Shown: one piece after another, positions 51,337-55,917 of the stretch | Layout of the letters: each line of letters starts with the position of its first letter | How positions within the stretch are numbered: the stretch's first letter is position 1 | NCBI RefSeq assembly: GCF_004022215.1 | Contig: NZ_SAUZ01000008.1 | Coordinates: 62,001 to 126,000, forward strand | DNA: 64,000 nucleotides | Direction: 5' to 3' | Source: Paenirhodobacter populi | GTDB taxonomy: Bacteria > Pseudomonadota > Alphaproteobacteria > Rhodobacterales > Rhodobacteraceae | Made by a program: the position numbers and the translations under genes | The notes under the pieces: model-generated | What the model saw: only the letters and a program-made list of their open reading frames with translations | What the model was told of the DNA's origin: nothing | Databases searched by the model: none

Positions 51337-51729
51337 ATGGATATTTCAAAAATCAGGTCCCTCATCGAGATATTCGGCCAGTCCCGTCTGGCCGAGCTGG
51401 TCGTTTCGGAAGAGGGCACGACCGTGCGCATCCTGCGCGGCGAGGCCGCCCCCGAGGCATCGGCGACCGTCGCGCCGCCGCCACCGAAAGAGGCGCCCCA
51501 TTCCATCCGCGCGCCGATGTTCGGCATCGTCCACGCCACCCCGAATCCGGGCGCCGCGCCCTTCGTGTCGCCGGGCGACAAGGTGGAACCGGGCCAGCCC
51601 CTCTGCGTCATCGAGGCGATGAAGGTCTTCAGCGTCATCGCCGCCGACCGCGCGGGCACCATCGCCCGCATCCTGTTCGAGGACGGCGCCGAGGTGGACG
51701 TCGACCAGCCCTTGGTGGAATACGCATGA
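51337..51729 (+). CDS. Biotin carboxyl carrier protein (AccB-like)
   Basis: A 130-aa biotin carrier. The N-terminal 35 residues form the AccB helix-strand region, a Pro/Ala linker ([10 protein letters not shown]) follows, then the biotinyl domain. The biotinylated lysine is Lys96 in [10 protein letters not shown] (EAMKV instead of EAMKM). The start MDISKIRSL at 51337 has only a weak ribosome site. The stop overlaps the accC start. Probably dedicated to the local carboxylase/oxoprolinase complex rather than to general acetyl-CoA carboxylase. Confidence 0.9.
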
Positions 51730-53084
51730 CTGCCTTCGATACCGTCCTGATCGCCAATCGCGGCGAAATCGCGGAACGCATCCGGCGCGCCTGCGCGGAT
51801 CTGGGGCTGCGCAGCGTCGCCATCTGTTCCACCGCCGACCGGGATGCGCCCTACGGGCCGCGCTCCGACCTGTTCCTGTGCATCGGCCCGGCGAAAGCCT
51901 CGAAAAGCTACCTGAACATCCCGGCGATCCTGCTGGCCGCGCGGGTGTCGGGGGCCGGGGCGATCCATCCGGGCTATGGCTTCCTGTCGGAAAACGCCGG
52001 TTTCGCCGAGGCGATCGAGGCCGAGGGGCTGACCTTCGTCGGCCCGCCCTCCTCCGCCATCCGCACGATGGGCGACAAGATCGCGGCCAAGCGCGCGATG
52101 CTCGAGGCCGGCGTGCCCTGCGTCCCGGGCCCCGACGAGGCCTTGCCCGACGACCCCGCGCTGATCGCCCGCATCGCCGACGAGATCGGCTATCCGGTCA
52201 TCGTCAAGGCCGCGGGCGGGGGCGGCGGGCGCGGGATGCGCGTGGTCGCCACGGCGGCGGAGCTCGCCGATTCCGTCGCCATCACCCGCGAGGAAGCGCG
52301 CAACGCCTTCGGCTCCCCCGCGCTGTATATCGAGAAGTTCCTCGAACATCCCCGCCATGTCGAGATTCAGGTGCTGTGCGACGCGCATGGCCATGCGGTC
52401 TGGCTGGGTCACCGCGACTGTTCGATGCAGCGCCGCCACCAGAAGGTGGTCGAGGAAGCCCCCGCCCCCGGCATCCCCGCCGAGATCGCCGCCCGCGTCG
52501 GCGCAAGCTGCGTCGAGGCCTGCCAGCGCATCGGCTATCGCGGCGTCGGCACCTTCGAATTCCTCTACGAGAACGGCGAGTTCTATTTCATCGAGATGAA
52601 CACCCGCCTTCAGGTCGAACATCCGGTGACGGAAATGACCTCGGGCACCGACATCGTGGTGGAACAGCTCAGGGCCGCGATGGGCCAGCCGCTTGGCTTC
52701 ACACAAGACGACGTGACCTGCACCGGCCACGCCTTTGAATGCCGCATCAACGCCGAGAACCCGGAAACCTTCGCGGCCTCTCCGGGGGTCATCACCGGGC
52801 TGCACCTGCCCTCGGGCCCCGGGGTGCGCGTCGATACGCATATCGAGGAAGGCTACCGGATCTCGCCTTTCTACGATTCGCTGATCGCCAAGGTGATCGT
52901 CCATGCGCCCGACCGCGATCAGGCCATCGAACGGATGCGCGCGGCGCTCGATGACATGCGCATCGACGGGATCGAGACGAACCTGCCCCTGCACCGCGCC
53001 ATCTTCCGCGATCCGGCGTTCTGCAAGGGCGGGACGGATATCCACCATCTGGAGCACTGGCTCCGCACGCGAGGGAAGGCATGA
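51726..53084 (+). CDS. Biotin carboxylase (AccC-like)
   Basis: ATP-grasp biotin carboxylase (452 aa) that carboxylates carrier-bound biotin with bicarbonate. It has [31 protein letters not shown], the ATP-grasp loop [14 protein letters not shown] (161-174) and [14 protein letters not shown]. Start overlaps the AccB-like stop, and its end overlaps the BCCP-like gene (ATGA). Full length and with all catalytic motifs. Embedded next to pxpBC, whose products resemble the carboxyltransferase parts of urea carboxylase. Confidence 0.94.
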
Positions 53085-53452
53085 TGGACAGGCTGACGGA
53101 TCCCGAAACGCTTCTGAACCTCGCGCATTGGCTCGAAGCGGCGTCGCTGAGTTCGATCGAGATCGAGCATGAGGGCACCCGCGTCGTCGTCCGGGTGGGC
53201 GCGGTGGCCGAAGTCTCGCGCCCGCAGGCGACCGCCGTCACCGCGCCCATCGCCGGGCAGGTGCTGAACGCCCATCCCCTGCGCGCTGCGGTCACGGATG
53301 TGGCGGCGGGCGAGGCGGCGGCCTTCGTGCAGGTCGGGCCGATCCTCGTGCCCGTTCCCGCGCCCACGGCCGGGCATGTGACGGGCCGGACGGCCGCCGA
53401 CGGCGCGCTGGCCGGTCATGGCGACACTCTCCTTTCGCTGGAGGCGAAATGA
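53081..53452 (+). CDS. AccB-like protein lacking the biotinylation lysine
   Basis: A 123-aa protein whose first half matches the adjacent AccB-like protein ([24 protein letters not shown] versus a similar stretch there). A biotinyl/lipoyl-type domain follows ([16 protein letters not shown], then [14 protein letters not shown]). Where the functional carrier has EAMKV, this one reads VGPIL, so it cannot be biotinylated at that site. It may be a structural subunit, adaptor or decaying duplicate. Overlapping starts on both sides show it is kept in the operon. Confidence 0.8.
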
Positions 53453-54138: not shown

Positions 54139-55160
54139 TGGAGATACTGGCAACCGGCCCGCTGAACACGGTGCAGGATCTGGGGCGTTTCGGCTACCGC
54201 AACGTCGGCGTGACGACGAGCGGCGCGATGGACCCGCTGGCCCTGCGCGCGGCCAACCTCCTGCTGGGCAATGCCGAGACCGCCGCGGCGGTCGAGGTGC
54301 AGACCTTCCCCTTCCGCCTGCGGTTCGATCAGGACGGCGCGATCGCCATCACCGGCGCCGATTGCCGGCCGGTTCTGGACGGCATGCCGCTGCCGCCGTG
54401 GTGGGCGCTGCCGGTGCGCGCCGGGCAGGTGCTCGACCTGACCGCCCCGGTCAGCGGCGCGCGGAGCTATCTGGCCATCGCGGGCGGCATCGATGTGCCG
54501 GTGGTGCTGGGATCGCGCTCGACGGCCCTGCGCGGCGATTTCGGCGGGCTCGACGGGCGCGCGCTGCAACAGGGCGACCGGCTGGCGGCCTGCACCGCCC
54601 CCCCGCCCGACCTGCCTGCCACGGGCCTTGGCGTGGTGCCGCCCGAAACTGCGCTGGCCGCATATTTCCCCGCCCGCGACGAGACCGGCACGCTGGTGCT
54701 GCGGGCCCTGCCCTCGGGCGAGCATGACCTGTTCGGGCGCGATGCGGAACGGTTCTGGGCGCAGGAATGGAAGATCTCGGCGCAAAGCAACCGCACCGGC
54801 TACCGGCTGTCGGGCGATCCGATCCACCCCGACACGCCGGTCGAGATGCGCTCGCACGGGCTGGTTCCGGGCGTGGTGCAGGTCCCCCCGGCGGGCGAGC
54901 CGATCATCCAGATGAGCGACGCCAACACCGCGGGCGGCTATCCCAAGATCGCCGGGGTGATCGAGATCGACCTGTGGCGGCTGGGTCAGGCGCGGATCGG
55001 CAGCCGGATCCGGCTGGAACGCTCGGATGTCGCCACCGCCATCGCCGCCGAAAAGGCGGTCGAGGCATGGCTTTCCGACATCCGCCACACGGCGGCAATG
55101 GTCACAGATGCGCTGGCCGGGATGGCCGGGCGACAGGGAAGGAACAAGGATGAAGATTGA
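54138..55160 (+). CDS. pxpC: 5-oxoprolinase subunit PxpC (KipA family, biotin-dependent carboxyltransferase-like)
   Basis: KipA/PxpC protein (340 aa), partner of PxpB. The opening MEILATGPLNTVQDLGRFGYRNVGVTTSGAMD is diagnostic, followed by LLGN-ETAAAVEV and the late KISAQSNRTGYRLSG and GGYPKIAGVI. The start ATG at 54138 overlaps the pxpB stop, and a longer frame upstream is spurious. Overlaps pxpA by 11 bases. In urea carboxylase the same two domains are fused to a biotin carboxylase and a BCCP. Confidence 0.92.
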   Translation: MEILATGPLNTVQDLGRFGYRNVGVTTSGAMDPLALRAANLLLGNAETAAAVEVQTFPFRLRFDQDGAIAITGADCRPVLDGMPLPPWWALPVRAGQVLDLTAPVSGARSYLAIAGGIDVPVVLGSRSTALRGDFGGLDGRALQQGDRLAACTAPPPDLPATGLGVVPPETALAAYFPARDETGTLVLRALPSGEHDLFGRDAERFWAQEWKISAQSNRTGYRLSGDPIHPDTPVEMRSHGLVPGVVQVPPAGEPIIQMSDANTAGGYPKIAGVIEIDLWRLGQARIGSRIRLERSDVATAIAAEKAVEAWLSDIRHTAAMVTDALAGMAGRQGRNKDED

Positions 55161-55917
55161 CCTCAATTCCGACATGGGCGAGGGCTTCGGCGTTTTCCGG
55201 GTGACGGATGACGACGCGCTGATGGGGGTGGTGTCCTCGGCCAATATCGCCTGCGGCTTCCACGCCGGTGATCCGCAGATCATGACGCGCATGGTCCGTC
55301 AGGCAAAGGCGCGCGGCGTCGGCATCGGGGCGCATCCCGGCCTGCCCGACCTGCAGGGCTTCGGCCGGCGCGAGCTGCCCTTTTCGCATGACGAGATCCG
55401 CCAGCAGATGCTGTATCAGATCGGCGCGCTGACGGCGATCGCGAAGGCCGAGGGCACGCGCGTGTCCCATGTCAGCTTCCACGCGGCGATGGGCAACATG
55501 ATCAACCGCGATCCGGCGCTGGCCGATCTGTGCATCGCGGCGATCAAGGCGGTCGATCCCGATCTGATCGTGTTTTCCATGCCGGACACCGAGGTCGAGC
55601 GCGCCGCCAAGGCCGCCGGGCTGAAGACGCTGACCCTGTTCCTTGCCGACCGGGCCTATGACGCGCAGGGCCATCTGGTGCCGCGCGGCGTGCCGAATTC
55701 GGTCATCACCGCCGAACCCGCCGTCCGCGCGCGGGTGCGGCAGTTCCTGACCGAAGCGACGGTCACAACGATCGAGGGGAACATCCTGCCGGTGCGGGCG
55801 CGCTCGATCCTGATCCACAGCGACACGCCCGGCTCGCTCGACCTTGCCCGCATCGTGCGCAGCGAGATCGAGGCCGCGGGCGGCACTGTCGCCCCGGCGC
55901 GCGAGGTTCTTGCCTGA
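55150..55917 (+). CDS. pxpA: 5-oxoprolinase subunit PxpA (LamB/YcsF family)
   Basis: PxpA (255 aa), the third subunit needed for 5-oxoproline cleavage. MKIDLNSDMGEGFGVF, SANIACGFHAGDP, GAHPGLPDLQGFGRR and HVSFHAAMGNM are hallmark segments. The start at 55150 is within the pxpC end. Followed by a bidirectional terminator. Its presence points to oxoproline or a related cyclic amide, whereas urea carboxylase clusters normally lack it. Confidence 0.93.
   Translation: MKIDLNSDMGEGFGVFRVTDDDALMGVVSSANIACGFHAGDPQIMTRMVRQAKARGVGIGAHPGLPDLQGFGRRELPFSHDEIRQQMLYQIGALTAIAKAEGTRVSHVSFHAAMGNMINRDPALADLCIAAIKAVDPDLIVFSMPDTEVERAAKAAGLKTLTLFLADRAYDAQGHLVPRGVPNSVITAEPAVRARVRQFLTEATVTTIEGNILPVRARSILIHSDTPGSLDLARIVRSEIEAAGGTVAPAREVLA

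Follow-up and report, generated by a model that had tools for sequence, protein, structure and literature searches.

A stretch of 64,000 nucleotides from Paenirhodobacter populi (the window; part of contig C78 of a 4.78 Mb genome in 91 contigs) carries on its + strand, at positions 51337–55917, six open reading frames in the order accB, accC, a gene for a 123-residue protein resembling the biotin carboxyl carrier protein (BCCP), pxpB, pxpC and pxpA. An earlier sequence-only reading had described six genes with overlapping ends; all six frames were found and every junction shares 1–11 bases. Chance assembly of the set is ruled out because the identical order recurs in several genera. AccB2 (51337–51729) is a BCCP that contains the biotinylation motif EAMKV expected of a biotin-dependent carboxylase (Pfam Biotin_lipoyl, 1.6e-19), with a score below the cut-off of the TIGR00531 BCCP model (103.1 versus 115.2 bits). 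AccC2 (51726–53084) is a biotin carboxylase (BC) scoring above the TIGR00514 cut-off (631.4 versus 626.5 bits). The BCCP-like gene occupies 53081–53452. PxpB2 (53449–54138; CT_C_D, 5.4e-62; TIGR00370, 171 versus a cut-off of 145.55 bits) and PxpC2 (54135 with a GTG start or 54138 with an ATG start, to 55160; CT_A_B, 5.1e-88; TIGR00724, 307.7 versus 230.2 bits) represent carboxyltransferase (CT) subdomains C/D and A/B respectively, and PxpA2 (55150–55917; LamB_YcsF, 1.5e-90; PxpA subfamily model, 338.6 versus 226) is a LamB/YcsF lactam hydrolase homologue. Judged from these genes and their relatives, the operon probably encodes a biotin-dependent hydrolase of lactams (cyclic amides), divided into subunits and accompanied by a catabolic cassette.

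A domain search of the contigs located four biotin carboxylase C-domains, including that of AccC2. A second accC, with an adjoining accB, lies on contig C12; its product is 53% identical to AccC2, and we take this for the housekeeping pair. C12 also has a 1151-residue frame with BC and Biotin_lipoyl domains, taken from its length for pyruvate carboxylase. C8 encodes a 1197-residue protein with BC, CT_A_B, CT_C_D and Biotin_lipoyl parts that groups with annotated urea carboxylases (100, starred) in the PxpC tree described below. The genome has three CT_A_B domains, those of PxpC2, the C8 protein and a 311-residue PxpC on C7, and only two Carboxyl_trans proteins, which we take for AccA and AccD; AccB2 and AccC2 therefore have no orphan CT partner except PxpB2–PxpC2. 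The sequence-only reading had likened the operon to a urea carboxylase divided into subunits, a layout borne out, by inference, in that the operon encodes a BC of its own together with a BCCP bearing the motif for biotinylation. It had also held that PxpA excludes a simple urea carboxylase; PxpA does speak against one, and the genome has a separate such enzyme on C8. Scores against the single-chain urea carboxylase model TIGR02712 are far short of its cut-off (473.6 for AccC2 and 187.4 for PxpC2 versus 1303.85 bits). The C8 locus (L022, 5579–10965) has ABC-transporter-like genes upstream of the urea carboxylase and a 598-residue amidase-like gene downstream (neighbours labelled by eye) and probably serves urea or guanidine degradation.

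Relatives were collected with PxpC as bait because tblastn with the BCCP-like protein alone was nearly blind: it matched one plasmid record and, among 289 genomes of the class, 7 including the window's own. The best 80 of at least 590 confirmed stretches were retained, and the counts describe close relatives; since 57 of the 80 are Rhizobiaceae by name, they are not independent. Rhizobium johnstonii 3841 and Sinorhizobium fredii NGR234 have PxpC homologues at 61.7% and 69.0% identity respectively. Two sets of 20 regions were hand-picked, non-randomly, from the genome match lists, one region being the window's own contig. Loci were filed as class A (the window's kind), C or X (both also AccBC-linked) or D (retrieved stretch without a recognised AccC).

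The third protein alone gave no Pfam or NCBIfam match. Nineteen of 33 relatives match Biotin_lipoyl at E ≤ 0.1, and a profile of the 33 matches solved BCCPs in the PDB (best 4hr7_B, 3e-16). The protein aligns with AccB over nearly its full length in hhalign (99%, E 7.9e-18), and its AlphaFold2 model (pLDDT 86.9, pTM 0.59) matches BCCP domains in Foldseek (1bdo, TMt 0.78). In an alignment of 80 BCCP-like sequences (79 loci plus the window) with 12 true AccB rows, none of the 80 has lysine in the biotinyl-lysine column (P 43, H 15, S 7, L 7, D 3, Q 2, V 2, G 1); a GPxLLPV-type stretch replaces the biotin site, and chance lysine motifs printed by a regular expression in some of the proteins lie outside it. 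The lysine-less form recurs in all 15 additional class A loci examined (L066–L070, L072–L075, L077, L078, L091, L092, L097 and L098) as judged from their printed ends, the L072 and L097 proteins being identical. It was not detected in six class C, three class X and nine class D loci, nor in L076. The paralogue is kept in 79 of the 80 loci (exception L159), and in the enterobacterial ones no true BCCP was found near it. By its sequence the third protein is thus a BCCP homologue incapable of the usual biotin attachment: the kinship proposed by the sequence-only reading stands, and a role as second biotin carrier is ruled out. Plant BADC proteins, which shape or regulate acetyl-CoA carboxylase, are likewise BCCP homologues without the biotinyl lysine that occur beside a true BCCP; the window's paralogue differs from them in being bacterial and in accompanying PxpBC. 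Its BCCP fold and N-terminal part appear to be kept, and by analogy an assembly or regulatory role is most likely.

Neighbourhoods were scored within at most 8 kb with identity thresholds of our own setting, and several loci are cut by contig ends (e.g. L100, L126, L131 and L168). The co-occurrence of accB–accC with pxpABC that the sequence-only reading proposed to look for was found: 68 of the 80 loci have an AccC with at least 60% identity, all 80 have PxpB, 78 have PxpA and 67 have AccB (EAMK was printed for 66 of these AccB; the first regular-expression match of the remaining one lay elsewhere). AccC of the Rhizobiaceae loci is mostly 69–76% identical to AccC2. In an AccC tree (45 rows, quick method) AccC2 falls within a starred 19-row set (96) of class A AccC, which also takes in two rows from BC searches, L181 (from the Pseudomonas graminis genome) and L196 (identical to L176). 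This set excludes the genome's housekeeping AccC and the remaining BC rows, and class C AccC forms a separate group that includes one BC row (L202). L077, filed as class A, belongs to none of the starred class A sets here and sits next to L076 in the PxpC tree. AccC2 exceeds the cut-off of an acetyl-CoA carboxylase BC model, as it would if the pair had a general fatty-acid role, and the sequence-only reading had named as a danger to its proposal that these might be the only accB and accC of the genome. Given the pair on C12 and an operon and AccC clade tied to PxpABC, we reject the fatty-acid role as extremely improbable.

The PxpC tree, built from 73 rows by a quick method, has a branch (SH-aLRT 84, not starred) that sets classes A and C, the urea carboxylases, E. 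coli and L076 on one side; 2 of 30 class D rows fall on this side and 28 outside. Class C rows group with the urea carboxylases (98, starred). Like the window, class C and the other AccBC-linked sets (such as L093 of Rhizobium leguminosarum and L231 of Lactiplantibacillus plantarum) have AccC and a lysine-bearing BCCP beside PxpABC; unlike it, they have one BCCP as far as found, the usual PxpA residues and other AccC lineages. L079, L081, L082, L093 and L216 make up a distinct AccBC-linked PxpABC family, found in the window's taxonomic order and in Rhizobium, with the arrangement PxpA, small BCCP (EVMKT), AccC, long PxpB (∼ 290–310 residues), PxpC. On the L. plantarum plasmid (L231, 2744–7797) the order is pxpB–pxpC–BCCP–accC–hydrolyase–pxpA, adjoining an NRAMP-type transporter, and resembles the B. 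subtilis pxp operon plus AccBC.

PxpA2, PxpB2 and PxpC2 are 37–45% identical to the genome's second set on C7 and to the E. coli proteins (PxpC2 versus E. coli, 42%). The AlphaFold2 model of PxpC2 matches YbgK (5dud, TMt 0.91) and urea carboxylase (3va7); its score against the PxpC_5OPro equivalog model is far below the cut-off (298.1 versus 500 bits). In window numbering, PxpA2 has S109, L163 and L221 in place of the usual K109, E163 and C221. Of 30 class D rows, 29 have all three usual residues (exception L076), as do 5/5 of class C and 3/3 of class X, against only 2 of 84 class A rows (L074 and L092) and none of 10 enterobacterial class A rows. Two of the changed positions stand two residues before the conserved H111 and H223, which suggests that they line the active site. 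Position 144 of PxpB is S in PxpB2, in 84/85 class A rows and in 11/11 enterobacterial rows; it is F in 30 of 32 class D rows (the others being L076 and L083, a urea carboxylase mis-filed in class D for the residue counts and left out of the PxpC tree), in 6/6 of class C and in 3/3 of class X. Q256 of PxpC is present in PxpC2 and in 85/85 class A and 11/11 enterobacterial rows, with L in 31 of 32 class D rows. E193 occurs in 83/85 class A rows and is shared with E. coli PxpC, which is without Q256. Residues common to class A and the urea carboxylases and absent from class D were not counted as evidence for biotin use, because the tree groups class A with the urea carboxylases and some of these residues also occur in part of class D.

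This signature bears on the substrate. Since the C7 PxpABC set carries the usual residues while that of PxpA2, PxpB2 and PxpC2 differs, 5-oxoproline, which the sequence-only reading had offered first, is an unlikely substrate, and the operon's compound is probably another one. In the C7 set (L021 and L026) pxpC lies beside pxpA and pxpB ∼ 7 kb away; TRAP-transporter-like, GntR-like, dehydrogenase-like and M20-like hydrolase genes (labels by eye) lie between pxpC and pxpB. The CT homology to urea carboxylase, and the branch uniting classes A and C with it, would also suit an enzyme in separate subunits that carboxylates an acyclic substrate (a ureido, guanidino or amide compound), with PxpA2 then hydrolysing the N-carboxylated product like allophanate hydrolase. 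We regard this as rather improbable: the genome already has a urea carboxylase with an amidase-like neighbour, PxpA belongs to a lactam-hydrolase family and the neighbouring genes suggest an amino-acid product. Moreover, all six urea carboxylases have D at PxpB 144 and H at PxpC 193, against S and E in the window.

The operon is flanked by a divergent EamA-family transporter gene (50228–51214, − strand; EamA, 6.2e-29), homologues of which occur near 15 of the 80 loci, including 10 of 11 enterobacterial ones. Downstream, a terminator-like hairpin at 55943–55962, found on both strands, separates two convergent units and is predicted to close the operon; 8 terminator-like sites were observed in the 5.2 kb scanned versus 2.2 expected, and a promoter scan of the region gave no promoter result. 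The convergent unit encodes a Pot-type ABC importer on the − strand: the ATPase (55985–57100; above the TIGR01187 potA cut-off), the solute-binding protein (57110–58183; SBP_bac_8, 6e-22) and PotC-like (58222–59085) and PotB-like (59022–60083) permeases, both below the NCBIfam cut-offs and with uncertain starts. Beyond it, on the + strand, are SDR1, a short-chain dehydrogenase (60440–61186; best model YdfG 3-hydroxy acid dehydrogenase, below cut-off), a class I, aspartate-transaminase-like aminotransferase (61203–62405; NF004769, 508.7 versus a cut-off of 617 bits) and SDR2, a second short-chain dehydrogenase (62402–63097; adh_short). A nac-like LysR regulator gene (63107–64000, − strand; Pfam LysR, scanned on L071) continues past the end of the window and is 64–69% identical to a nac-annotated gene in L066, L068, L069 and L070. 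Upstream, at 46937–49636 on the − strand, are polysaccharide export-like and SGNH/AlgX-like genes (labels by eye).

Among the 80 loci the aminotransferase recurs in 78 (in L066–L070 it is 74–80% identical), SDR1 at 45% identity or more in 75 and LysR in 76; 62 have homologues of PRK09262-type RraA. The unit takes in an aminotransferase, a dehydrogenase, the LysR regulator and an importer, with an RraA-type aldolase added in most relatives, so the extent given by the sequence-only reading is right for the six genes and falls short beyond them, the unit continuing past the importer to the aminotransferase and dehydrogenase genes. The same reading saw the convergent importer as a possible supply. 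This is plausible for the window, whose layout is matched from accB through SDR2 (annotated there) in Neorhizobium sp. NCHU2750 (L098) with the Pot-type importer and its ATPase in place; of the 80 relatives at large, however, 72 have a PAAT ATPase and 72 a PAAT solute-binding protein. The Pot-type solute-binding protein (45% identity or more) is found in four, the same four that have SDR2, which thus accompanies the Pot-type version. No RraA gene was seen among the window genes examined, no search of the whole window or genome having been made for one. Most of the genera that appear by name in the 80 loci are plant-associated, and annotated records label the genes singly as subunits of acetyl-CoA carboxylase or 5-oxoprolinase. 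On the Pseudomonas aeruginosa plasmid pCF39S (L092, 1834–3789) a PxpBCA–BCCP–AccC–BCCP-like cluster follows an aminotransferase gene and three genes annotated as RraA family/dimethylmenaquinone methyltransferase, of which two were scanned and both are RraA-like.

In the biotin-dependent hydrolase that we favour, AccB2-bound biotin would be carboxylated by AccC2 at the expense of ATP and bicarbonate; from there PxpB2–PxpC2, homologous to the urea carboxylase CT domain, would transfer the carboxyl group onto the nitrogen in the ring of a lactam taken up by the cell. Hydrolysis of the ring thus activated would fall to PxpA2, and the opened product would lose CO2 to give an amino acid, to be degraded by the aminotransferase, the dehydrogenase and, in most relatives, the RraA-type aldolase. 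The lysine-less protein may shape or regulate the BC–CT assembly in the manner of BADC. Urea carboxylase (TIGR02712; K. lactis 3VA7) with allophanate hydrolase offers the nearest parallel: it shares the BC, the BCCP, the CT fold and, if we are right, the logic of N-carboxylation preceding amide hydrolysis. The window differs in its separate polypeptides, its second, lysine-less BCCP and a PxpA replacing the amidase. With the PxpABC 5-oxoprolinase (YbgJKL, KipI–KipA–YcsF) it shares PxpA, PxpB and PxpC homologues encoded together and a PxpC2 model resembling YbgK; BC, BCCP and lysine-less BCCP are additional, and PxpC2 misses the PxpC_5OPro cut-off and the residues described above differ. Aspergillus uses lamA, a lactam utilization gene, alongside lamB. 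PMC3412718 relates PxpA/YcsF to LamB of 2-pyrrolidinone use, in a system that is fungal.

A number of observations weigh against dependence on biotin. The characterized PxpABC, the subject of work by Niehaus in 2017, reportedly needs none. Three class X PxpC rows are AccBC-linked and fall outside the side of the tree that holds class A and the urea carboxylases, and E. coli PxpC belongs to the same starred set (99) as class A. With urea carboxylase counted as linked, AccBC linkage changes five times on the PxpC tree; it has therefore been gained or lost several times and is alone no proof of chemistry. Class C and X PxpA keep the usual residues although they are AccBC-linked, so that the PxpA changes point to a different substrate and not to biotin use. 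L076 (genome G423) has much of the class A signature, but the 16 kb retrieved show neither AccC nor BCCP, and for lack of AccBC it was placed in class D. AccC is absent from the stretch in 12 of the 80 loci, 11 enterobacterial and one of Agrobacterium vitis (L102), whose PxpC is 59–67% identical to PxpC2; at these loci biotin must either be carboxylated by a housekeeping AccC or be dispensable. Contig ends truncate some of the stretches (L131 covers 2.5 kb upstream). On the A. vitis plasmids of L102 and L066 (6361–7285; outside the 80 loci) accC is missing between accB and the lysine-less BCCP gene and the remaining operon is intact, a natural loss of the operon's biotin carboxylase. PMC13274462 describes PxpABC as ATP-dependent, with phosphorylation assumed.

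Such loci, with PxpABC kept and no AccC in the stretch, together with the place of E. coli PxpC within the class A set, are what would be expected if PxpA2–PxpB2–PxpC2 opened a lactam by phosphorylation while AccB2–AccC2 served another reaction or regulated carbon flow. We think this unlikely, though it is the alternative to be taken most seriously. AccC2 sits in an operon-linked clade and AccC in most of the loci, the genome offers it no other orphan carboxyltransferase, and 10 of the 11 enterobacterial loci retain the BCCP paralogue. Furthermore, six enterobacterial PxpC rows form a group (99, starred) nested in class A next to Pseudomonas graminis (91), which has AccC at its locus; this suggests later loss. 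The enterobacterial lineage may accordingly have lost its dedicated AccBC and use the housekeeping pair. BC domains were searched for in 13 genomes, including 10 of the 11 enterobacterial ones. Judged by frame length, the L112 and L114 genomes have one free-standing BC each (460–461 residues), their other frames exceeding 1200 residues; others, e.g. that of L110, have two, and some of the genomes may hold a second AccC far from the locus.

Judged by title or the start of the abstract, none of the open-access papers listed in literature searches treats AccBC and PxpABC as one enzyme; the subscription literature may hold more. Published work does touch on the components: PMC3199775 notes two split UCT-like genes without giving a function, PMC12427679 handles extra AccBC and pxpB/pxpC of L. 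pentosus separately, and PMC8453981 quotes ATP hydrolysis for PxpB and PxpC. In the PDB entry 9YX5, AccA3 appears together with two sequences of acyl-CoA carboxyltransferases (their chains are labelled D4a and D5a in 9T97) and with allophanate hydrolase subunits 1 and 2 (PxpB/PxpC), and the titles of 9YX1 and 9YX2 name an M. smegmatis long-chain acyl-CoA carboxylase complex; 9YX5 was not among the matches of a fold search with the PxpC2 model. A PxpBC pair is thus modelled alongside a BC–BCCP subunit in one entry, which counts in favour of our proposal, although the entry may show no more than PxpBC bound to an acyl-CoA carboxylase.

As to the compound itself, the adjoining aspartate-type aminotransferase, YdfG-like dehydrogenase, RraA and amino-acid-type importers lead us to a speculative candidate, more likely wrong than right: a 4-hydroxy- or 4-hydroxy-4-alkyl-pyroglutamate of plant origin, whose ring opening would give a 4-hydroxyglutamate that, once transaminated, could be cleaved to pyruvate. 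A search of open-access papers for 4-hydroxy-4-methylglutamate-type substrates with rhizobia yielded nothing useful. RraA invites one further thought, since the Shinella protein scores above the cut-off for 4-carboxy-4-hydroxy-2-oxoadipate aldolase/oxaloacetate decarboxylase and homologues are widespread among the loci: the carboxylase might act on carbon, attaching CO2 to a carbon acid within the pathway, and PxpA might come in only afterwards. Carboxylation of carbon is common among biotin enzymes; the closest CT relatives nonetheless act on the nitrogen of urea, the operon is without a CoA-type or pyruvate-type CT, and we consider this very improbable. The hydrolase reading in its fullest form, to which we would give rather less than an even chance, is that of a new lactamase class in which biotin-dependent N-carboxylation takes the place of phosphorylation, the pseudo-BCCP is a bacterial BADC, the substrate is a plant-derived substituted pyroglutamate and enterobacteria borrow the housekeeping BC.

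The conserved association of PxpABC with AccBC points to one enzyme whose job differs from the labels that its genes carry. If that enzyme is biotin-dependent, it would provide a second chemical route to ATP-driven lactam opening, bear on the carboxyltransferase resemblance of PxpB and PxpC and mark a nutrient imported by many rhizobia and plant-associated enterobacteria. The lysine-less BCCP paralogue would extend pseudo-carrier subunits to bacteria.

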